Shown here piece by piece: positions 38,908-52,729 of a stretch of DNA of 64,000 nt. Both the position numbers and the translations under genes were made by a program. The notes under the pieces were generated by a model. The model was given only the letters and a program-made list of their open reading frames with translations. It was not told the DNA's origin and searched no databases. Position 1 is the first letter of the stretch, and every line of letters begins with the position of its first letter. Source of the DNA: Alphaproteobacteria bacterium (lineage in GTDB: Bacteria; Pseudomonadota; Alphaproteobacteria; Micavibrionales; Micavibrionaceae); contig JAJRYK010000010.1 in assembly GCA_024275825.1 (NCBI GenBank), forward strand, positions 1 through 64,000. The letters run 5' to 3'.

Positions 38908-39966
<1,059 letters not shown>

Positions 39967-40035: not shown

Positions 40036-41337
40036 ATGGCTGTCGTTCGCAAAAATCCTGAAACTGGTCAAATTGAAACCTGTACGCATATAATGTCGGG
40101 CAAGCCGATGGATGTACCGTTTGATCATTCATACAGTGTTCCGGTTAGTGCAGAGCGTCAAGCCTTTGTGACGGCGGCGTTAGCCAAGCACTATCCAGAT
40201 AAAGACGTTTCTGTGAAAGGGCAGCCTTGGGACTATAGCCTTACAGACAATCCAGCTGTTCATGAAGAGACAATGGCTGGTCATTACCGCACAGAGATTG
40301 AGGGTGTTGGCGAGGTCGTTGTTTGTGTCAATATCCATGATGTGGAAGAGGCAATCGCGCTTGGTGGAGAAGTGTTTGATGCGTTTAATGAGCAAGACGT
40401 ACAAACGCAAGGCGCTGTGAAGTTACCGGAAGGCCAGTGGTCTTTTGAAAAAGATGGCGTTTTTATCCATTTGCAGGCGTTCTCTGAAAACACAGTATCT
40501 TTAGCGCAATCTAATATGATCGCTCGGGGAGAAGAGCTTGGCCGTATGGTCGGGCGCATGCATGTTGCGGCTTTGGCTCTGCCAGAGGATACGCAGGAAC
40601 GCTTGAAAGTGTTTAGCGATGATACGACATACCAATTGTGGACAGCAGGCTTTGTTGTGGGGAATAAGGGCGATAGCAACACAATGATAGATCTGGCGGG
40701 GCTTGTTTCTAAAAAGGCTGAAGGGCGCGGCAAGGATCCAGTAAAAGCGACAAATGATTTATATGATGCTGTTGAGTCTGTTATTCAAAAGAATAGTGAT
40801 CGTATTTTGACGGTTATTAATGACTCTCCTCGCGTTGCAACATCATTCAATGTGATTGAGAAGATGGTTTTGGTGGGTAAGGGGGGTGCATTAACATTCG
40901 CTTCTTGCGACACGCCAAGTCGTGGTTTTGTTGGCATGTTAACACCGCATATGACGTATGATGCAGGCGTTGCGCTTTATCGGATTGTGATGAATGAAGC
41001 GCTTTACGGTGATGCGACTGATATTTATCCGTTGGCGCAAAAGGAAATAGAATCTTTTGTCCGCGGCTATAACGAAGAAACAGGATGTAACGTTACAATC
41101 CAGGAGGCGTTGGAAGCCGCAGAGCTTGCCAATGCGCTTGATACAACGATCAGTCTGGGGTTCGCAGCTTTGACTTCTAAAGACAATGCGGCCACCAGAG
41201 CGGATCTGGCTGAACATATTATCACGATGAAAATGCCACATGCTGAGCGTGTTCATGGTTTTGTGGAGTATTATGGTGCGCACCCACGTCTCGATCCTGA
41301 TGCGGTACATGGTTATGGTGATCGAGAGCCCGAGTAG
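40036..41337 (+). CDS. Unknown protein with a degenerate aminoglycoside-phosphotransferase-like pattern
   Basis: The 433-residue soluble protein lies between pseB and pseC and I cannot name it. The stretch from about 145 to 200 (GVFIHLQAF, ELGRMVGRMHVAALALP) resembles the hinge and following helix of APH/choline-kinase-type phosphotransferases, and around 320-360 (YDAGVALYRIVMNEAL, SFVRGYNEETG) resembles their C-terminal helices. Where the catalytic HGDxxxxN and metal DxD motifs should be, only ATSFNVIEKM and ASCDTPSRG are seen, so the active site appears lost. The fold call is by eye and uncertain. It has its own strong promoter. Confidence 0.6.
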   Translation: MAVVRKNPETGQIETCTHIMSGKPMDVPFDHSYSVPVSAERQAFVTAALAKHYPDKDVSVKGQPWDYSLTDNPAVHEETMAGHYRTEIEGVGEVVVCVNIHDVEEAIALGGEVFDAFNEQDVQTQGAVKLPEGQWSFEKDGVFIHLQAFSENTVSLAQSNMIARGEELGRMVGRMHVAALALPEDTQERLKVFSDDTTYQLWTAGFVVGNKGDSNTMIDLAGLVSKKAEGRGKDPVKATNDLYDAVESVIQKNSDRILTVINDSPRVATSFNVIEKMVLVGKGGALTFASCDTPSRGFVGMLTPHMTYDAGVALYRIVMNEALYGDATDIYPLAQKEIESFVRGYNEETGCNVTIQEALEAAELANALDTTISLGFAALTSKDNAATRADLAEHIITMKMPHAERVHGFVEYYGAHPRLDPDAVHGYGDREPE

Positions 41338-41408: not shown

Positions 41409-42551
41409 ATGTTACCCTATGGACGTCAAACAATTGAAGATGATGATATCGCAGCCGTTACGGACGTACTGCGTGCCGATTTTTTGACGACAGGTCCCAA
41501 GGTTCAAGAATTTGAACGCTCTTTACAAGAAACGACGCAGGCAGAACATGTTGTTGCGTGCTCGAATGGTACGACAGCGCTTCATTTAGCGGCTTTGGCT
41601 CTTGGTCTGGGGGAGGGTGATGTTGCGATTGTGCCATCGGTGACGTTTCTTGCAACTGCAAACGCCGTGCGTTATTGCGGCGCAGAGGTCATTTTTTCTG
41701 ATGTTAGCTCAGAGACCGGGTTGATGGAGGTGGAGCATTTTAAGGGCGCCCTCGATCGATGTGAGGGTAAGAATGTTAAAGCCGTTTTCCCGGTTCATTT
41801 AACAGGCCAATGTGTTGATTTGAAGGCTGTCAGCGCGTTTGCTAAAGAGCGCAATATAAAGATTGTCGCCGATTCTTGTCATGCTTTGGGCGGGCACTGT
41901 AACGATAAGCCTGTCGGCGCAGGCCTATATGAGGATTTATCTACATTTTCATTTCATCCCGTAAAAACTATTGCGATGGGTGAGGGCGGGGCAATTACAA
42001 CCAATAATGCTGATTATGCTGAAAAAATGCGTGTTTTGCGTAGTCACGGTATGGTCAAAACTGGTTCCGATGAGCCATGGTTCTATGAGATGCCGGAAAT
42101 AGGATTTAATCATCGTCTGACAGATATTCAATGTGCGCTCGGTATTTCTCAAATGAAGAAATTGGAGCGTTTTGTTGGACGCAGAGCGGAACTGGTCGCG
42201 CTTTATGATGAGCTTTTAAAGGACCTTGCGCCATTAGTTATGGCGCCGAAAAGGGTGGGGCATTGTGATCCCGCTTGGCACTTATATGCTGTGCGGATAG
42301 ACTTTGGGCAAGCTGGTACAACGCGCGCTGCTGTAATGGGGGGGCTTACGCGAGGCGGCGTGGGGACACAAGTGCACTATATTCCCGTTCATACGCAGCC
42401 TTACTATAAAAAACGATATGGCGATGTTGTATTGCCGGGCGCTGATCACTATTATGAGCACACATTATCTCTTCCGTTATTCCCGGCGATGCAGGATAGC
42501 GATGTGCATCTGGTCGTTGAGCAACTTAAACAAGCAATTGGAGCCTCTTAA
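41409..42551 (+). CDS. pseC: UDP-4-amino-4,6-dideoxy-N-acetyl-beta-L-altrosamine transaminase PseC
   Basis: PseC aminates the PseB product at C4, using PLP and glutamate. The 380-residue DegT/DnrJ/EryC1 enzyme has CSNGTTALHLAALALG near 51-66, the family DSCHALGG near 157 and the PLP lysine in FSFHPVKTIAMGEGG near 178-192. The N-terminal YGRQTIEDDDIAAV matches PseC. It follows the unknown gene by 71 bases and is followed at once by the first NeuB-family gene. Confidence 0.92.
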   Translation: MLPYGRQTIEDDDIAAVTDVLRADFLTTGPKVQEFERSLQETTQAEHVVACSNGTTALHLAALALGLGEGDVAIVPSVTFLATANAVRYCGAEVIFSDVSSETGLMEVEHFKGALDRCEGKNVKAVFPVHLTGQCVDLKAVSAFAKERNIKIVADSCHALGGHCNDKPVGAGLYEDLSTFSFHPVKTIAMGEGGAITTNNADYAEKMRVLRSHGMVKTGSDEPWFYEMPEIGFNHRLTDIQCALGISQMKKLERFVGRRAELVALYDELLKDLAPLVMAPKRVGHCDPAWHLYAVRIDFGQAGTTRAAVMGGLTRGGVGTQVHYIPVHTQPYYKKRYGDVVLPGADHYYEHTLSLPLFPAMQDSDVHLVVEQLKQAIGAS

Positions 42552-42553
42552 AT

Positions 42554-43660
42554 ATGTACACTGAACAAAAAACTGTTTCTTTTGGCGATAAGAAAATTGG
42601 AGATGGTCACCCATGCTTTATTACATTTGAGGCTGGCCCAACGCATGATGGTATAGAAACAGCGAAGAAGCTTGTTGAGCTGACGGCGGAAGCGGGTGCA
42701 GATGCGGTGAAATTTCAAATTGTTGATCCAGAGCGCCTTGTTGCTGATAAGAAGCAGCCTTTTAGTTATGATATTCTGGTCGATCGAGAAACAGGCAAAA
42801 CGGAGACGGTAACGGAGCCCCTTTATGACATTCTTTGTCGCCGGGCATTAACGAAGGATGAGTGGCGAGAGGTTAAGGCGCTTTGTGACACGCTCGGTCT
42901 GGCGTTTTTTGCGACTGCGACTTTTGAAGACGAAATTGAGTTGATGGAGGAGCTGAAATGCCATTCTATTAAGATTGCGTCTGGCGATGTTAATCATATT
43001 CCGCTTATTCGCCGGGCTGCGCGGACAGGAATGTGTATTCAGCTTGATACTGGAAACTCGACGCTTGGTGAAATTGAAATGGCCATTGATGCTGTGCGCA
43101 GTGAAGGGAACGAAAACATTATTGTTCATCAATGCCCATCGGGGTATCCGGCGCGTATTGATAGTGTAAACCTGCGGATCATCCAGACATTGAAGCAAAT
43201 GTTTGGTTATCCGGCCGCCTATTCTGATCATGTGCCAGGGTGGGAAATGGATGTGGCTGCGGTGAGTCTGGGGGCCAATCTTGTTGAAAAGACGATTACT
43301 TTGGACCGTATGACGCCAAGTGTAGAACATATTATGTCTCTTGAGCCGGCTGACATGTCAGCTTTTGTGAAAATCATGAGAGACCTTGAGGTGGCGATGG
43401 GGGATACACGTCGAATTTTGCATGCGCCAGAGCGTCAAAAGCGTGATGCGATACGTCGTAGCATCTTCTTGGCTGGACCAGCTAAAAAGGGACAAAAATT
43501 GAGTGATGTAGAGGTGGAATTTCGTCGTCCCGGCTACGGTATTGGGCCTGAGCAATATGAAGGTCTTTTGAACTCTATTTTTGTTAGGGATCTTGAGAAA
43601 GATGAACGCTTAAGCTTTAGTGATCTCATGCAGCCCGAGGAAAAATCTCAAGCGGCTTAA
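42554..43660 (+). CDS. N-acetylneuraminate synthase-family protein (first NeuB paralogue)
   Basis: A nonulosonic acid synthase of 368 residues that should join a six-carbon amino sugar with phosphoenolpyruvate. It has the NeuB barrel: CFITFEAGPTHDG at the start, AGADAVKFQI near 49-58, FFATATFE, IKIASGDVNH, YSDHVPGWE near 228, EKTITLDRM near 255, and a C-terminal antifreeze-like (SAF) domain from about 305. It differs from the second synthase in the locus (51566) in most variable regions, so the two probably use different substrates. It starts two bases after pseC. Confidence 0.85.
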   Translation: MYTEQKTVSFGDKKIGDGHPCFITFEAGPTHDGIETAKKLVELTAEAGADAVKFQIVDPERLVADKKQPFSYDILVDRETGKTETVTEPLYDILCRRALTKDEWREVKALCDTLGLAFFATATFEDEIELMEELKCHSIKIASGDVNHIPLIRRAARTGMCIQLDTGNSTLGEIEMAIDAVRSEGNENIIVHQCPSGYPARIDSVNLRIIQTLKQMFGYPAAYSDHVPGWEMDVAAVSLGANLVEKTITLDRMTPSVEHIMSLEPADMSAFVKIMRDLEVAMGDTRRILHAPERQKRDAIRRSIFLAGPAKKGQKLSDVEVEFRRPGYGIGPEQYEGLLNSIFVRDLEKDERLSFSDLMQPEEKSQAA

Positions 43661-43679: not shown

Positions 43680-44669
43680 ATGAAAATACTCATTATCGGA
43701 TGCGGGTCTATTGGTCGCAGGCATGCTGAAAATGCAGTGTCTTTGGCTGATGATGTGGCTGTTTTCGACCTTAACTCGACGCTTTCGCGAGACTTAGCCG
43801 GCCATGTTGGTGCAAGGTCTTTTTCTTCTTTGGAGGAGGCTTTGGCATGGGGCGCAGATGGCGCCGTGGTTGCCACGCCGCATAAAATGCATATTGGGCT
43901 GGCCCGCCACGTGATTGAGAGCGGCGCGGACGTGCTGATTGAAAAGCCCATTTCCAATAGCCTTGAGCACGTTGATGACTTTCTGCAACAAGCCAAGATA
44001 CTAGGGCGTCAGGTTTTTGTTGCCTGTAATATGCGGTTTCATCCTGCGGTTGCGACGCTTCGTCAAAATTTAGAGCGTATTGGCGATGTTATGTATGCTC
44101 GCGCTCAGTACGGTAATTATCTGCCGAATATGCGGCCTGATAGCGATTATAAGGCGCTGTATTGCGCACATGAAAGCGAAGGCGGCGGTGTTATTCTTGA
44201 TGCCATTCATGAAATTGATTATCTATCCTGGTTTTTTGGTGATGTAGCTTCCGTGATGTGTGATGCAGCGAAAAGAAGTAACCTGGATATAGATGTTGAG
44301 GATTATGCAGCGCTTGTTCTTCGTCATGAAAATGGTGTGCGCAGTGAGGTGCATCTGGATTACCTGCAGCAATATAAGCGGCGTGGCTGTGAGATCATTG
44401 GATCAGAAGGGACGCTAGTTTGGCGGAGCGAAGGCAAGGCTCCTGAACACTGCCTGGTCCGCTTGTATGATGCGAAAGCGCAGCAGTGGAAGGTGCTCCA
44501 CGAAGATCGCGATTTAGATGCAGGTAATATGTACCGCACCTTGATGGAGAATTTCATTGCGGCGATAAAGGCGCCGGGCATGCCTTCAGATCTGCTTACT
44601 GGTGACGAGGCTTTAAAGTCATTGGCGATTGCTCTTGAAGCCCGTGCGCAGGTTAAATCACTTCGATAG
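43680..44669 (+). CDS. Gfo/Idh/MocA-family oxidoreductase
   Basis: An NAD(P)-dependent sugar oxidoreductase of 329 residues. The Rossmann motif ILIIGCGSIGRRHAENA is at residues 3-19, the EKP motif (LIEKPIS) is near 88 and the conserved H-containing helix in GGGVILDAIHEIDYLSW near 174-190. The frame runs open to 43620 but the ATG at 43680 starts the Rossmann fold. It follows the synthase by 19 bases and is likely cotranscribed. The 3' end overlaps the convergent methyltransferase by 12 bases. Confidence 0.87.
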   Translation: MKILIIGCGSIGRRHAENAVSLADDVAVFDLNSTLSRDLAGHVGARSFSSLEEALAWGADGAVVATPHKMHIGLARHVIESGADVLIEKPISNSLEHVDDFLQQAKILGRQVFVACNMRFHPAVATLRQNLERIGDVMYARAQYGNYLPNMRPDSDYKALYCAHESEGGGVILDAIHEIDYLSWFFGDVASVMCDAAKRSNLDIDVEDYAALVLRHENGVRSEVHLDYLQQYKRRGCEIIGSEGTLVWRSEGKAPEHCLVRLYDAKAQQWKVLHEDRDLDAGNMYRTLMENFIAAIKAPGMPSDLLTGDEALKSLAIALEARAQVKSLR

Positions 44670-45371
44670 CTTGACTGTATACCAAGGCATCAGCATATAA
44701 GGGCTGATTTGCATGCGCTTTCCATCTTCTGTTTTTACGGTGTAGGTTGAAAGCGTTAGAGGGTCTGGCTTTGGTAGGTCTACATCAATTTCGGTGGCTT
44801 CTGAAGATAGAGTGACATTCTTATCTTCGATGAAATCCTCTAAACGTTTCAGAGAGTCTATTTTATAGATAAATGTTTTGTTATTTTTTAAATCACGCCG
44901 GATTGTGTCTTGTTCGAAGTATTCTTCGGAGAACAGGGAGGTTAAAACGAGGTGTTGGCCTGCGAGGGGAAGGGCTGCATCAAGAAAATCATAAAGGCTG
45001 AAGGGCGCTGTGACCACGACTTGAATAGAAAGCACAAGATCAAAGGGGCCGCTTTCAAGAGCGTCTTTTAAATTTAAAATGTCTTCGCAAAAGAATGTTT
45101 CTGTTGGGTTTTGCTCCTGAGCGACTTCAACGGCTTTTGGGTCAAAATCTACGCCCACAAATTTCCAGTTTGGAAAGGCTTCTTTAAGCCAATGAATATT
45201 AGCGCCACCGCCACACCCGAGATCCAGAACTCTTTTAACGTCATTTGTATCAATATTGTTCTTTAGGTATTCAATCAGAGACACCGTGCTGCGATACGGC
45301 GTTTTATATTGCCGTAAATGATAGTCAAAATTAGAGGTGTAACTTATTTTTTCTTTTGCAGGGCTCGTCAT
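44658..45371 (-). CDS. Class I SAM-dependent methyltransferase
   Basis: The 237-residue soluble protein has the AdoMet motif VLDLGCGGGANIHWLK near 49-64, the acidic loop GVDFDPKAVEVAQ near 78 and motif LVLSIQVVVTAPF near 116. It is the last gene of a five-gene minus-strand run in which most neighbours overlap by ATGA; its ATG overlaps the stop of the cytidylyltransferase. Sugar O- or N-methylation is likely. Confidence 0.82.
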   Translation of the reverse strand: MTSPAKEKISYTSNFDYHLRQYKTPYRSTVSLIEYLKNNIDTNDVKRVLDLGCGGGANIHWLKEAFPNWKFVGVDFDPKAVEVAQEQNPTETFFCEDILNLKDALESGPFDLVLSIQVVVTAPFSLYDFLDAALPLAGQHLVLTSLFSEEYFEQDTIRRDLKNNKTFIYKIDSLKRLEDFIEDKNVTLSSEATEIDVDLPKPDPLTLSTYTVKTEDGKRMQISPYMLMPWYTVKLSK

Positions 45372-46081
45372 ATGTATTCCTTGTTGATGTTGGCAATATC
45401 GGGATTGGCTTGAAGGTAATTTAAAACGTCATCTAAGTACAGGATACGATTTTCAGCATGAAGGCCCTTTATAACATGACGCAAAACGGTGAGGTCCTTT
45501 TCGTAATCTAACGTAAGGCGGTAATTCTCAAAGTAATTTTCTGCGGCCGTGATGTTTTTAAATTGATATGGAGCTCCATCACGCCAAAACTCTGATAAGT
45601 GTTCAGGGCGGTTTTTTTCTTCAATATCCGCACATGCTTTCCGCAGAGATTCTATGCTCATGACTGAAATATCATAGCCATCAGGGAATGTGTGAGGATT
45701 TTGGTTCGTTACCATGTCTAGGTCTGGATTCTTTGTTAGTGTGTCGATTGCTTCATCAATAAGCTTGGGGTCAATGAGCGGGCAATCCCCGAGCAGGCGT
45801 ACAACGATATGCGTTTCACAGGTTTCTGCTGCGCCAAGAAGGCGGTGCATTATTTTGTCTTCATCTCCTCTATAGACCTCTATGCCAATGTCTTTTGCGT
45901 GTTGGGCCAGCACGTCATCGCGGGGATGGCCCGAGGTTGTGAGGATGATGTGGTCAAGTTTTTGGGCCCCACGCACTTGTTTGACGATCCGTTCAATAAC
46001 CGTCATGCCACCTAAGTCTTTAAGGACTTTGTTGGGGAGTCTGCTGGACCCTGTGCGGGCTTGGATAATACCGTTAATCAT
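45368..46081 (-). CDS. SpsF/CMP-NeuAc-synthetase-like cytidylyltransferase
   Basis: The 237-residue protein has the nucleotidyltransferase signature IIQARTGSSRLPNKVL at residues 5-20 and the metal/base site RLLGDCPLID near 94. It belongs to the SpsF family, related to CMP-sialic acid synthetases. No other CMP-transferase (PseF, NeuA) is visible in the locus, so this is the best candidate to activate the nonulosonic acid with CTP. It lies directly downstream of a class III aminotransferase. Confidence 0.83.
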   Translation of the reverse strand: MINGIIQARTGSSRLPNKVLKDLGGMTVIERIVKQVRGAQKLDHIILTTSGHPRDDVLAQHAKDIGIEVYRGDEDKIMHRLLGAAETCETHIVVRLLGDCPLIDPKLIDEAIDTLTKNPDLDMVTNQNPHTFPDGYDISVMSIESLRKACADIEEKNRPEHLSEFWRDGAPYQFKNITAAENYFENYRLTLDYEKDLTVLRHVIKGLHAENRILYLDDVLNYLQANPDIANINKEYI

Positions 46082-46085
46082 AGCG

Positions 46086-47489
46086 TTATTCCGAACAGCA
46101 TGCGGCTTTTGGAGCGTCTTTGTGAAGAAGCCCGCATTGTCTTTGGAGGCATTTATTATAGGTCCGCATAACGGGCTTTATAGGGTCGCCAACTAAAATA
46201 TTTTCAACGTCATCATTTTCAAGAATGGGCTTTAAGCTTTTCATGACCTCGCTGAACACTTCAAAGGTGCGTTTTAGGTGCTCTGGTGTGTGAGAGTAGG
46301 TAACTGTAAGCCATGATGCCATGATGCCCCGGGCGAGACACTCCTGTATAAATAAGGTCATAAGGGTCATAGAGGGCGCGCCAGTTTTGTCCTTAAAGGA
46401 AAAAACGGGATTGCAATCAAAGCCTGCAGCGCTGATGAACTCAGAAACGCCTTCTTGCTCGGCAATGGTATTCATACCGTTTTTGAAGGCTTTGCCAGTG
46501 TCCCAAATATGCTGCGTCGCATTTACTCTTTTGCATTCTTCCAATGTAGCCATAATGGCGGCGAGGCCGACAGTCTCGGAGGCGTGCGTTTGGGACAGCA
46601 GAAATGTACGCACCTCATCATGGAAAATACCGCCGATCTCCATGATGTCCTTTTGACCAGCTAATACGGAACAAGAATACCCATTACTTACACATTTACC
46701 AAAGGTTGCGAGGTGCGGATAAACGCCCCAGCGGTGATGCGCGCCGAGTAAGTCAAAGCGAATACCGGAAATCATCTCATCAAAAATTAAGATAGTACCG
46801 TTTTTGTCGCAGAGGTTTTTTAGTTTTTGTAAGAAATTATCGTGGGGTTCAACGTCTTTTACGGGTTCAAGAATTATACATGCGATGTCATCGGGGTGGG
46901 CGGCGAATAAATCTTCTACGCTTTGGATATCATTATACTTAAAGTTAAGAGCATAATCTTTGATTTCACTAGGTATTCCACGATTACAGGGCGTTGTTGA
47001 GATGAACCAGTCATGAGTGCTGAAGAAGGGATGCTCGGCACATTTCGCGATATAGTTTCGTCCGGTATAGGCGCGCGATAGCTTAACGGCAGCATGTGTA
47101 ACGTCGGAGCCGTTTTTGCCAAACTTCACCATTTCTGCAACGGGCCAGAGGTCGACCAGATATTCAGCAACCTCATATTCAAGAAGGCCTGGACGTGAAA
47201 AATTGGTTCCCTTGCTGATTTGCTCTATCACGGCTTGATCAACAGCATCGTAGGCATGCCCAAGAACAAAGGTTCTGTTGCCCATCATCCAATCGATATA
47301 TTCATTACCATCAACGTCCCAGCATAGGGCGCCCTTGGCATGAGACACTAACTTTGGTGATAAATGGGGCTGTTGATCCTCACCTTTGGAATAGGTGTGG
47401 GACCCACCGGGAACGAGCGCATGAAATTTTTTCTGCAGGGCAAAGGACTTTTCGTAGCGTTTATATAGCTCATCAGGAGGGGTGATCAT
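46086..47489 (-). CDS. Class III aminotransferase (glutamate-1-semialdehyde-mutase-like)
   Basis: A PLP enzyme of 467 residues. It has the fold-type-I landmarks LVPGGSHTYSKGEDQ near 29, GNRTFVLGH near 70, LIFDEMISGIRF near 223-234 and the likely PLP lysine in LATFGKCVSNGY near 254. The extra 60-residue tail ends in several cysteines (CLQRQCGLLHKDAPKAACC). The class is used in aminated sugars of surface glycans. It overlaps the oxidoreductase upstream by four bases. Confidence 0.8.
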   Translation of the reverse strand: MITPPDELYKRYEKSFALQKKFHALVPGGSHTYSKGEDQQPHLSPKLVSHAKGALCWDVDGNEYIDWMMGNRTFVLGHAYDAVDQAVIEQISKGTNFSRPGLLEYEVAEYLVDLWPVAEMVKFGKNGSDVTHAAVKLSRAYTGRNYIAKCAEHPFFSTHDWFISTTPCNRGIPSEIKDYALNFKYNDIQSVEDLFAAHPDDIACIILEPVKDVEPHDNFLQKLKNLCDKNGTILIFDEMISGIRFDLLGAHHRWGVYPHLATFGKCVSNGYSCSVLAGQKDIMEIGGIFHDEVRTFLLSQTHASETVGLAAIMATLEECKRVNATQHIWDTGKAFKNGMNTIAEQEGVSEFISAAGFDCNPVFSFKDKTGAPSMTLMTLFIQECLARGIMASWLTVTYSHTPEHLKRTFEVFSEVMKSLKPILENDDVENILVGDPIKPVMRTYNKCLQRQCGLLHKDAPKAACCSE

Positions 47490-48388
47490 TTCAGGCCTTC
47501 TTCGATTATATTTATTACTTTGAGTGTCTCGGTTTTTGGTATGGCTATAGTGGAGCTACGCACCGTTTCTACAAAATGCATTAATGCTGTTTTAAAGGCT
47601 GAAAAGGGATCCGTAAACTCTTTCGTAACATATCCATTTTCACCGTAATAGGTGATACGGATGGGGCCTTTTTTAACATTGTGGCCCATAGCTTGAAACT
47701 CTGTGATGATGTCATTATCCCATTTGGCTATTACGGAGACTGTCTCGCCTATCTTTGATGTTTTTATCTCTGAAATATTTGAATTGAACCCTAAAAAGTT
47801 AATGACTGGCTCAATCAAATGTATTGCGTATTTGTCCCATGATTTAACTGTTGAGCCCATAATATGGGTTATGGGTCCTATTTCCTGAAGCTCTTGCGGT
47901 GAGGGATATAACTCTTCAGCAAAGCGTAGCGCGGAGCATGTGAAAATTTGCCCTTCATAGGTTTGAAGATCAAAAATATCATTAGCGCTTTGAGATGACG
48001 TTGCGAGAGGTTTGTCGATAAATATTGGTAGTCCGGCGTTTAAGAACGGCTTGCTTATCTCATGGTGGTTTTCGTGATCGTCTCTGGCCAGCAAAATCGC
48101 ATCGACCTCGCCTATGAAGTCGGTGTAATTTTCAGGTGTATTGGAGATGTTACAGCTTTCAGCGATGTTTTGTGTAATGGCTGGGTCTTGTGTCCAAGCG
48201 TGACTGATGGTGGCATCCGTTATTTGATCTTCGGGAAATTTTTGTTTTTTCAAGTAAGACACAATGTTTGGAAAGGCTGATTTTTTCATTTCATCAGGAT
48301 TGTAGCCATTAAAAATTGTAGACCAAGAGTAAGGATGTCCATTGCCTTCGCTTAACCCAATGACACCTAATTTTAGCACATTCTTCAC
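47486..48388 (-). CDS. Gfo/Idh/MocA-family oxidoreductase (second)
   Basis: The 300-residue protein has the Rossmann start LKLGVIGLSEGNGHPYSW, the motif DAILLARDDHENHHEISKPF and IFIDKPLATSS in place of the usual EKP segment, with a C-terminal sheet domain. The variation around the EKP lysine is retained (DKP). It is overlapped by four bases on both sides. A sugar dehydrogenase or epimerase role in glycan synthesis is likely; the substrate cannot be deduced. Confidence 0.8.
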   Translation of the reverse strand: MKNVLKLGVIGLSEGNGHPYSWSTIFNGYNPDEMKKSAFPNIVSYLKKQKFPEDQITDATISHAWTQDPAITQNIAESCNISNTPENYTDFIGEVDAILLARDDHENHHEISKPFLNAGLPIFIDKPLATSSQSANDIFDLQTYEGQIFTCSALRFAEELYPSPQELQEIGPITHIMGSTVKSWDKYAIHLIEPVINFLGFNSNISEIKTSKIGETVSVIAKWDNDIITEFQAMGHNVKKGPIRITYYGENGYVTKEFTDPFSAFKTALMHFVETVRSSTIAIPKTETLKVINIIEEGLK

Positions 48389-49920
48389 GCAGCACCTCGT
48401 TTGGGCGTGTTTAGCAAGTCGTTGTCAAAATTGCCATTAATAGTATACCCCCATTCTTCGATGTATTTCCGCATGGCTTTGGCGAAAAGAATAGCATTGT
48501 CGCGAGCCCCATCCTGGGTTACCTCATTGCCAATATCTCCATTTTTGCTTTTGCCGCAGGTGGCATAAAAGGCACGGAATGCGTTGAGTCGCTCTTTTTT
48601 GTTGGGTTTAAAGTTGTCGAGATAGTCTATGAATTCATCATGAAATTGATCATTAATAGATGCCTTATAGACGCCAGGAAGAAAATTATAAAAGACATTC
48701 CCGAGTGCGATAACGGGGGTGCCTAGCAAAAAGGCTTCCCACCCTGCTGTGCCTGTAACAGCGGCAACAGCGCGTGCCTTTTTTGTTAATTCAAATGTGT
48801 CGACCGAGGGCGCGATGATGCGGACGTTATATATAGAGTTTAATTTTTTATAAAAAGCCGTGGGCCGTTGTCCGAGCATGGAGGTGTGCTCCTTTACGTA
48901 TAGCTGGCAGTCGGAAGGTATGTGCTTGGCAAATTGTGCAACAAATCCACTATGGTGGTCATAGGCGCTACCAAAATACATATCACTTACTTCTGGTACA
49001 TAGTGGAGAGGTAAATAGATGAAAGGTGTATCCATGTCTGGTGCGTCATCAAAGGCTTTTTTCAGCTTTTGTTCTAGGCGTCTGTACTTACCCAGCAAAC
49101 CATTCTTTAGATATGTAAGCGGGTGTGCTTCATAATGAAAGGCACGATCAAACTCGACAACTCTTTGATGGGGAAATAACTTTTTTAGTTGTAATGTTTG
49201 ACGCAGATTGCTGAATATTTTTGTGAGACTAAGTTTGACGACTGAGTTATTGACAGCATAGGCCGGGCGAACGGGGGTTTCTATGAAGGCTTGGAATAAT
49301 TTGTCTGCCGTTTTGATGGCTTCATTGGTGATATATGTTTGTTTTCCGTTTTCTAAATCCTTGAAGCACTCTTGCAATCCCAGATGTTGTCCATTGATGT
49401 GAAGTGCGTTGATATGCCCGTTAAGTCGGCTGTTTTGTGTTAGGGGATATGGAATATTTTTCTGTGTACAGGCTGCGCGTAAGACAAGATGTAAATATGT
49501 AACAACCCCATCCATTACAAAAACGGGGGTTACTTTGTTTAAAAAATCGTCAACAAACATCATTGTGGCGAGTTGATGAACTTTCACTTTCTTATAGTCT
49601 TCAGCCCACCTTAGTCCACGGTCGTGTTGTGCTAACGCCGTATTGTTTTGTATACTGAGTTTTTTTTCTAGTTTAGAAAAAGTTTTATCGAAAGTTGCCG
49701 CATCCATTTGCTCAAGTTCTTTTTTGTGAGCAAAATAAAAATCTGGAAGGGAATATATTGTATCAAAAATGTTCCGAATTTCGGGTGTAATTTCTTCTTC
49801 TATTCGCGTGTAATTCGTTATTCCAATGACCGGTCTATCGAACTCTTTTGATAGTGCCTCGGCTAAATAAAATTGACCGGAAACACCCAGAACATAAACT
49901 ATTGGCTTTGTACTTTTCAT
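48385..49920 (-). CDS. Capsule-type glycosyltransferase-like protein (KpsS/KpsC-like)
   Basis: The 511-residue protein resembles capsule polysaccharide biosynthesis proteins: PFIYLPLHYVPE near 310, LYVKEHTSMLGQRP near 347, and a donor-site region AVAAVTGTAGWEAFLLGTPVIALGNVFYN near 395-423. Related proteins attach Kdo-type sugars to lipid acceptors or work with them. The frame opens at 49971, but the ATG at 49920 starts MKSTKPIVYVLG, where the fold begins. It heads the five-gene minus-strand operon. The -10 box TATAAT ends six bases before the ATG and there is no Shine-Dalgarno. Confidence 0.72.
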   Translation of the reverse strand: MKSTKPIVYVLGVSGQFYLAEALSKEFDRPVIGITNYTRIEEEITPEIRNIFDTIYSLPDFYFAHKKELEQMDAATFDKTFSKLEKKLSIQNNTALAQHDRGLRWAEDYKKVKVHQLATMMFVDDFLNKVTPVFVMDGVVTYLHLVLRAACTQKNIPYPLTQNSRLNGHINALHINGQHLGLQECFKDLENGKQTYITNEAIKTADKLFQAFIETPVRPAYAVNNSVVKLSLTKIFSNLRQTLQLKKLFPHQRVVEFDRAFHYEAHPLTYLKNGLLGKYRRLEQKLKKAFDDAPDMDTPFIYLPLHYVPEVSDMYFGSAYDHHSGFVAQFAKHIPSDCQLYVKEHTSMLGQRPTAFYKKLNSIYNVRIIAPSVDTFELTKKARAVAAVTGTAGWEAFLLGTPVIALGNVFYNFLPGVYKASINDQFHDEFIDYLDNFKPNKKERLNAFRAFYATCGKSKNGDIGNEVTQDGARDNAILFAKAMRKYIEEWGYTINGNFDNDLLNTPKRGAA

Positions 49921-49926
49921 GGGGGT

Positions 49927-49932
49927 ATTATA
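49927..49932 (-). promoter_or_regulatory. -10 box of the minus-strand sugar operon
   Basis: A perfect TATAAT, extended by an upstream TGATA, ends six bases before the ATG at 49920, with ACCCCC between. A -35 box is not clear. If used, the mRNA would begin close to the start codon, making a leaderless transcript. Confidence 0.4.
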
Positions 49933-49995
49933 TATCATAGCCGATGGAAAGAAAGAATAGGGTTTCCGCATATAGTCAGGGTGAAATATTTTAAT

Positions 49996-51012
49996 ATGTT
50001 GAATGTTATTTTTCGTGCGGATGCTTCATCCTTTATTGGTGGTGGGCATGTTATGCGGTGCTTAACCTTAGCGGATGCTTTATCTCATTCGGGTTGGCAA
50101 TGCTCTTTTGCTTGCACAGAGGCAACCGTTGAAATGATGCCATTTTTACTTCGCTCTGAGCATCAGGTTATTTCCACTGGCGTGCCTGATTATGAAGTAG
50201 ATCTGCTTGTCGTTGATCATTATGCCTTAGATGATAAATATGAGGCTGGATGTCGTGCCTGGGCGAAGCATATTCTTGTGATAGATGATTTGGCTGATCG
50301 CAGGCATGATTGTGATCTCCTTATGGATCAAACGCTTGGTCGATCAGCAAATGATTATAAAGACCTTGTGCCTGAGCATTGTGACGTTATGACTGGGGCT
50401 CGATATGCTCTTTTACGCCCTCAATTCGCAGAAAAGAGAGAAGAGTCGCTTGGTCGCCGGAAAAGTGCCGTAGGCGATATCCGCAAAGTCTTGGTTATGT
50501 TAGGGGCTGGCGATAAAGATAATGTTACAGGCTTGGTTCTTGAGGCGCTTGAGGGGCTGGCTGGTTCTTTGGATGTTGATGTGATTATGGGGGCAAATGC
50601 GCCGCACCTGGAGCTTATCAAGGGACTGACACAAAACTCTCATCATAATATAAATGTTTATGCTGGTATTGAAGATGTTGCCTCTCTTATGGCCAGTGCA
50701 GATTTAGCCATTGGCGCTGGCGGGACGGCGAGTTGGGAAAGGTGTTGCCTTGGTTTGCCGACATTGGTGATAGAAATTGCGGATAATCAACGTAAAATTA
50801 TTCAAGAAATTGTTGCAAGGGGAGCTGCGATTAGTGTGGGTCATTATAAAGATATTGTTTCGGAAGATATTGTTAAGGCTGTTGAGCGATTACAAAACAC
50901 ACCATCCATTGTTGCCGAGATGGGCATAAAGGCAGCGGGGGTGTCTGATGGTCAAGGTGTGGCACGTTTAGTTCAGCGAATAGAGACAAAAGGTGTGATA
51001 TGCGAATTTTAG
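49996..51012 (+). CDS. pseG: UDP-2,4-diacetamido-trideoxy-altropyranose hydrolase PseG
   Basis: PseG removes UDP from the pseudaminic precursor so the free sugar can enter PseI. From the ATG at 49996 the protein is 338 residues: FRADASSFIGGGHVMRCLTLADAL at the N terminus carries the catalytic H and GGGH loop, LVVDHYALD and VIDDLADRRHDCDLLMDQ follow, and the C-terminal GAGGTASWERCCLGLPTLVIEIADNQ is the nucleotide-binding motif. It is divergent from the minus-strand operon and overlaps the formyltransferase by 13 bases. Confidence 0.9.
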   Translation: MLNVIFRADASSFIGGGHVMRCLTLADALSHSGWQCSFACTEATVEMMPFLLRSEHQVISTGVPDYEVDLLVVDHYALDDKYEAGCRAWAKHILVIDDLADRRHDCDLLMDQTLGRSANDYKDLVPEHCDVMTGARYALLRPQFAEKREESLGRRKSAVGDIRKVLVMLGAGDKDNVTGLVLEALEGLAGSLDVDVIMGANAPHLELIKGLTQNSHHNINVYAGIEDVASLMASADLAIGAGGTASWERCCLGLPTLVIEIADNQRKIIQEIVARGAAISVGHYKDIVSEDIVKAVERLQNTPSIVAEMGIKAAGVSDGQGVARLVQRIETKGVICEF

Positions 51013-51569
51013 TGCTCTCGCCATATGCTCAGCACTTAACACCGACGCTTGAAGAAGCTGGAGATCAGTGGCTTGTTGTGCAGGATAAAATTACGCCTGA
51101 GTATTTGGCCGAACATAAAATAGAGATGGGCGTGTCCTATGGTTATCGCCATATTTTAAAAAGCGATATTCTTGGGATTTGTCCGTTTATAAATCTGCAT
51201 ATTTCTTATCTGCCGTGGAACAGGGGAGCTGATCCGAATATATGGAGCTGGATTGATGATACGCCTAAGGGGGTAACTATTCACAGTATAGATGAAGGTA
51301 TAGATACCGGAGATATTCTGGTTCAAAAGGAAGTGCCTATGGGGGATGATGAAACGCTATCCACATCATATCAAAAGCTGCAAGATGCCATTGTGCAGCT
51401 TTTTTATGATTCATGGGGTGATATTAGGGCGGCTAAGGTGTTAAAGACGCCGCAATTAGTTCAAGCTGGAAGCATGCATTATGCATCCGATAAGGCAGGA
51501 ATAGAGTTTTTATTAAGCGACGGGTTTGATACCTATGTTAGTAAGATTCAAGAAAAGGTTGTCAGTTGA
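51000..51569 (+). CDS. Formyltransferase-like protein in the place of PseH
   Basis: The 189-residue protein is a short methionyl-tRNA-formyltransferase-fold enzyme. The catalytic triad pattern is visible: N and H in FINLHISYLPWNRGADP near 62-78 and D in IHSIDEGIDTGDIL near 90-104. Such enzymes use 10-formyltetrahydrofolate to formylate amino groups of sugars such as dTDP-Qui4N or UDP-L-Ara4N. Here it sits between PseG and PseI, where the acetyltransferase PseH would be expected, so it likely formylates the 4-amino group of the altrosamine intermediate. It overlaps both neighbours. Confidence 0.8.
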   Translation: MRILVLSPYAQHLTPTLEEAGDQWLVVQDKITPEYLAEHKIEMGVSYGYRHILKSDILGICPFINLHISYLPWNRGADPNIWSWIDDTPKGVTIHSIDEGIDTGDILVQKEVPMGDDETLSTSYQKLQDAIVQLFYDSWGDIRAAKVLKTPQLVQAGSMHYASDKAGIEFLLSDGFDTYVSKIQEKVVS

Positions 51570-52729
51570 GCAGATCATTTAAGATAGAAAACCGCACGGT
51601 TGGCGGCGATGCGCCATGCTACATTATTGCTGAGGTGTCCTGTAATCATGAAGGTGATTTTGATGAAGCGCGCAAAATAATAGAGGCCGCTGCGGCAGCC
51701 GGCGCAGATGCGGCGAAGCTTCAAACCTATAAACCGTCAACAATGACGGGAAATTTTGAACAACGGGCTGAAGGGACAATGTGGTCAGAAATTGACCTCT
51801 ATAAGCTCTATGAAAAGGCACAGACACCGTGGGATTGGCATGGGGATCTTTTAAGGGTGGCGCAGGATAATGGTATTCATCTTTTTTCTAGTCCTTTTGA
51901 TGAAACGGCTGTTGACCACCTTATGCAATTTGATCCGCCTGCTTTCAAGATTGCTAGTTTTGAGGTTGTGGATACTAAGCTTTTGGAAAAAGTGGCTAAA
52001 ACCGGCAAGCCGATCATCATTTCTAATGGCATGACTACTTATTTGGAAATCCGTGAAGCGGTTGATACACTGCGCACTCATGGTGCTAAGGATCTTGCCG
52101 TTTTGCATTGTAATAGCGGTTATCCAGCCTCATTTGATGAAGCAAATTTAAATACTATCCCTGTTATTGAAGATATGTTTGACGTCGTTCCTGGACAATC
52201 TGACCACACTATTTTTGCGGATGATAAAAATTACAAATCCCCGATGGCACATGTGACGCCATTAGAGGCGGTGAAGATGGGTGCTAAAATTATTGAAGTA
52301 CACCTGTTGCTTGATCGCGGGAAGGCGCAAGCGTTAAACAAAAACGACGAAGGTGGCTTTGACTGGCCGTTTTCGCGAGAGCCTGATGAGCTCAAAAAAA
52401 TGGTTGATATGATTCGCGCTTATGAGCGTGATGGCGCTGTTGAGTATGGCAATGAGGACGAGCGCGTGGCGGCTTTGCGTACACATGGACAGGTGTGTTT
52501 TGACCCAACTGAAAAAGAGCTTGCAAGTCGTCAGTTGCGGCCTTCTCTTTGGATTGTAAAAGACGTTAAAGCCGGAGAACTGTTGCAGTTTGCCCCAGAT
52601 GGACAAGGTAATGTTGATTCTTTAAGACCTACAGGTGGGATACATATTCGCTTTGCTGATATGATTTCTGGGAAAAGGGCTGTGCGAGATATTAAGGCGG
52701 GAGAGCTATTAAGCTGGGACATGGTTTGA
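51566..52729 (+). CDS. pseI: Pseudaminic acid synthase-like protein (PseI, second NeuB paralogue)
   Basis: PseI condenses the freed trideoxy sugar with phosphoenolpyruvate to pseudaminic acid. The 387-residue protein starts at a TTG overlapping the formyltransferase stop (TTGA). It has CYIIAEVSCNHEGDFDEA, AGADAAKLQTYKP, LFSSPFDETAV, FKIASFEVVD, HCNSGYPAS, GQSDHTIFADD and a C-terminal SAF domain. The metal-binding segment is unusual, reading EVHLLLDRG with a longer insertion after it. The position next to PseG suggests it is the true PseI of the two synthases. Confidence 0.85.
   Translation: MSRSFKIENRTVGGDAPCYIIAEVSCNHEGDFDEARKIIEAAAAAGADAAKLQTYKPSTMTGNFEQRAEGTMWSEIDLYKLYEKAQTPWDWHGDLLRVAQDNGIHLFSSPFDETAVDHLMQFDPPAFKIASFEVVDTKLLEKVAKTGKPIIISNGMTTYLEIREAVDTLRTHGAKDLAVLHCNSGYPASFDEANLNTIPVIEDMFDVVPGQSDHTIFADDKNYKSPMAHVTPLEAVKMGAKIIEVHLLLDRGKAQALNKNDEGGFDWPFSREPDELKKMVDMIRAYERDGAVEYGNEDERVAALRTHGQVCFDPTEKELASRQLRPSLWIVKDVKAGELLQFAPDGQGNVDSLRPTGGIHIRFADMISGKRAVRDIKAGELLSWDMV

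Follow-up and report, generated by a model that had tools for sequence, protein, structure and literature searches.

What enzyme acts at the PseH step in a pseudaminic acid (Pse) locus in which pseG and pseI are separated by a formyltransferase gene? The question is raised by a 64,000-nucleotide stretch of DNA (the window) from an alphaproteobacterium of the family Micavibrionaceae. A preliminary description of this DNA, arguing from gene order alone, had placed the formyltransferase at the PseH step and had proposed Pse carrying a formyl group at C7 as the product. Our analysis supports this proposal through the apparent orthology of the formyltransferase with PseJ. We consider it very probable (roughly 0.9) that the locus encodes synthesis of Pse5Ac7Fo with PseJ at the step of PseH; the substrate, product and activating enzyme are those that we infer from the genes.

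Gene content and layout of the locus

NCBIfam models were applied to the window ORFs. PseB, PseC and PseG scored above their equivalog cut-offs (Table 1). For PseI, TIGR03586 was the best model, at ~5 bits below its cut-off of 340.25; the NeuB model gave 212 bits. The four Pse proteins listed in the preliminary description are thus all present, PseI lying just under its cut-off. The formyltransferase gene is compact and sits between pseG and pseI, as described previously, and it shares 13 nt with pseG and 4 nt with pseI. By this overlap, pseG, pseJ and pseI are a single operon. pseB and pseC are located 8-11 kb upstream of these three genes.

Table 1. Features of the Pse locus, in window coordinates.
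Feature	Position	Strand	Model evidence and remarks
pseB, UDP-GlcNAc 4,6-dehydratase (inverting)	38929-39966	+	TIGR03589 538 bits, cut-off 407.75
433-aa protein	40036-41337		no Pfam or NCBIfam match
pseC, UDP-4-amino-4,6-dideoxy-L-AltNAc transaminase	41409-42551	+	TIGR03588 480 bits, cut-off 423.5
second NeuB-family synthase	42554-43660		NeuB model 253 bits, PseI model 204 bits, both below cut-off
minus-strand gene group	44658-49971	-	
cytidylyltransferase (CTP_transf_3), candidate for CMP activation	45368-46081	-	PF02348 96 bits
pseG, UDP-sugar hydrolase	49996-51012	+	TIGR03590 278 bits, cut-off 153.55; ATG at 49996
pseJ, 189-aa N-formyltransferase (predicted)	51000-51569	+	PF00551 62.8 bits, cut-off 26.1
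pseI, pseudaminic acid synthase	51566-52729	+	TIGR03586 335 bits; NeuB and SAF domains; TTG start

The second NeuB-family synthase gene directly follows pseC. This position, and the slight shortfall of PseI, would fit a scheme in which PseG, PseJ and PseI use a close stereoisomer, or in which the second synthase acts, so that a formylated nonulosonic acid distinct from canonical Pse is made. We regard this scheme as quite improbable, because the three proteins PseB, PseC and PseG pass equivalog cut-offs and the best model for the last gene of the operon is PseI itself.

Several other features of the region were observed. PseI is ~40 residues longer than usual, with an apparent insertion around the SDHT motif; this long form is common to two other genomes of the family (G064, and G100 from another genus) and does not occur in a more distant member of the class (G514). 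The second synthase has a counterpart in G100 that is ~88% identical over the first 255 residues, and it is better conserved than pseI. The 433-aa protein encoded between pseB and pseC is missing from G100, where the gap between these genes is ~20 bases. The minus-strand group encodes a methyltransferase, the cytidylyltransferase, a class III aminotransferase (PRK06209, 547 bits), a Gfo/Idh protein and a Capsule_synth-like protein. Its order is kept in G100, and it perhaps has a role in another nonulosonic acid.

Identity of the formyltransferase

phmmer analysis against PDB sequences gave Anoxybacillus kamchatkensis PseJ as the top match (E 2.4e-46; 45% identity over the full length). The formylation domain of the linear gramicidin synthetase LgrA was second (E 1.3e-30), and other sugar N-formyltransferases had E values of 1e-13 or weaker. 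The catalytic Asn-His-Asp residues (N65, H67 and D102) were intact and were invariant across the aligned homologs. When an AlphaFold model of the protein (pLDDT 89) was compared with the PDB, 6ci4 ranked first (TM 0.88), followed by 6edk and 6ci2; all three are PseJ. A maximum-likelihood tree placed the protein inside the PseJ/LgrA-F clade (support 100/98); PurN, Fmt and ArnA fell outside this clade. By sequence, predicted fold and tree, the formyltransferase is a PseJ ortholog, with predicted PseJ activity. A role as PurN, Fmt or ArnA was ruled out by the tree and the search scores; separate copies of PurN and Fmt are present elsewhere in the genome.

The PseJ structures were released in the PDB in 2018. 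In the entry titles, UDP-4-amino-4,6-dideoxy-L-A(...) is given as a soaked ligand and N10-formyl-THF as a partner in a complex. We take the soaked ligand to be the PseC product, UDP-4-amino-4,6-dideoxy-L-AltNAc, and we assume the function of PseJ from these titles and general knowledge.

Formyltransferase matches in the phage collection were partial and weak only. The PseJ-like formyltransferases L096, L097, L098 and L099 formed a separate subclade (support 100/99) marked by an N-terminal FLGY motif and an RGAHPNFW motif; their genes do not immediately adjoin pseG.

Absence of PseH and distribution of acetyl and formyl loci

The window ORFs gave no match to a purpose-built PseH HMM based on seven members of the class, and a domain search revealed no fused GNAT or acetyltransferase domain in PseG, in contrast to many PseG relatives that have a C-terminal GNAT domain. 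The earlier statement that no PseH is visible in the locus was therefore correct. The genome-wide search for a PseH homologue suggested at that time also revealed none: in the 99.8% complete genome, the top TIGR03585 score was 14.5 bits (cut-off 93.1). A PseH fused to PseG was ruled out by the lack of the GNAT domain, and a PseH elsewhere in the genome by the TIGR03585 scores and a survey of GNAT proteins (PF13302).

This survey bears on another explanation, namely that the formyltransferase modifies a different amino sugar of a surface glycan while an unlinked GNAT acetylates the Pse intermediate. The genome does contain GNATs, with PF13302 matches at C35, C22 and C36 and weak matches to the PseH model at C26, C36 and C23. 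The window also has another aminotransferase gene and Gfo/Idh genes, whose products might be formylated. However, none of the GNATs exceeds 14.5 bits against PseH, and they are encoded on other contigs among unrelated neighbours, none of them near the locus. The nearest characterised relative of the formyltransferase is PseJ, for which there is a structure with the presumed PseC product; moreover, pseJ overlaps both of its neighbours, and its gene order is conserved elsewhere. The explanation is thus very improbable.

Conservation of gene order was evident in several genomes. G100 has the identical cluster order, including pseG-pseJ-pseI, and its PseJ is 65% identical to that of the window. 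In G514 the order is pseC-pseG-pseJ-pseI, a Clostridia MAG has the mirrored triplet pseI-pseJ-pseG, and in Sinorhizobium fredii pseJ adjoins pseI. A single-protein query against the genome contigs returned one relative only. In G064, by contrast with the pseJ of the window, a PseG-GNAT fusion gene with pseB and pseC upstream directly precedes a pseI whose product is 63% identical to window PseI. Judged from these sequences, the two loci form a natural swap within one family, with acetylation in G064 and formylation in the window at the same pathway step.

We examined the pseG loci of the 30 highest-scoring PseG matches in the class. PseJ was found at 3 of the 30 and a PseH-like GNAT at 21 (6 as separate genes, 15 as PseG fusions); no locus had both. 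The chance of zero overlap is ~0.02 if relatedness is ignored, a value that is no true probability because the loci are interrelated and were the highest-scoring PseG matches. At the whole-genome level, 9 genomes with PseJ-like proteins and 16 with PseH among 385 showed no overlap, counts too sparse for significance; the locus-level count is the better measure of exclusivity. G514 carries a weak PseH-like GNAT (46 bits) ~4 kb from pseG. Because this GNAT lies in the pseG cluster, the replacement of PseH is perhaps not strict everywhere.

Proposed pathway and comparison with known systems

The order of steps in Pse synthesis is well established. In the locus studied here, PseB and PseC would convert UDP-GlcNAc to UDP-4-amino-4,6-dideoxy-L-AltNAc. 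PseJ, using N10-formyl-tetrahydrofolate and its Asn-His-Asp site, would then formylate the free 4-amine in place of acetylation by PseH. PseG would remove UDP after this step, and PseI would condense the sugar with phosphoenolpyruvate, by which the C4 nitrogen becomes the C7 nitrogen. The acetyl group on the C5 nitrogen would thus derive from GlcNAc and the formyl group on the C7 nitrogen from PseJ. Because the cluster has PseJ instead of PseH, the 7-N-formyl variant of this Pse-type surface sugar is most likely the one made. A cytidylyltransferase would complete the pathway, with CMP-Pse5Ac7Fo as the likely end product. The protein encoded at 45368-46081 probably performs this activation; it scored 26 bits against the PseF model (cut-off 205.7) and is not a PseF equivalog, and no protein in the whole genome exceeded the PseF cut-off. 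It is conceivable, though rather unlikely, that a single PseB/PseC pool feeds both formylated Pse, through PseJ, PseG and PseI, and an undescribed second sugar, through the second synthase, the Gfo/Idh protein, the class III aminotransferase and the cytidylyltransferase.

The swap of acetyl for formyl is not new, since the PseJ class of enzymes has already been described. The enzyme, its substrate and the kind of sugar are known, and the window locus is a further example. It extends the range of PseJ to an alphaproteobacterial family with small genomes. When products are predicted from genomes, PseJ should be looked for at any pseG locus that lacks PseH before Pse5Ac7Ac is named as the product.

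That formylated Pse exists in nature, as the preliminary description stated, is confirmed by Pse with a 7-formamido group (PMC3210612). The Pse5Ac7Fo structure was determined in Pseudoalteromonas distincta KMM 638, according to the passages of PMC3210612 and PMC7281560 that cite it; the same sugar is predicted for the window locus, here from genes alone. A Geobacillus survey described Pse islands in which PseH is absent; some types of island contained formyltransferase genes (PMC5109656). PseH, whether stand-alone or fused to PseG, shares its pathway step and operon position with window PseJ, but it is a GNAT acetyltransferase of an unrelated family. The LgrA formylation domain has the same clade and fold (TM 0.83-0.87, ~36% identity); however, it is part of a nonribosomal peptide synthetase, whereas the window protein is stand-alone and encoded in a sugar operon. 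A. kamchatkensis PseJ (6CI2, 6CI4, 6CI5 and 6EDK) resembles the window protein in its short form of ~190 aa, its Asn-His-Asp triad and its fold; the window host differs in being an alphaproteobacterium, and the activity of its PseJ is predicted from homology.
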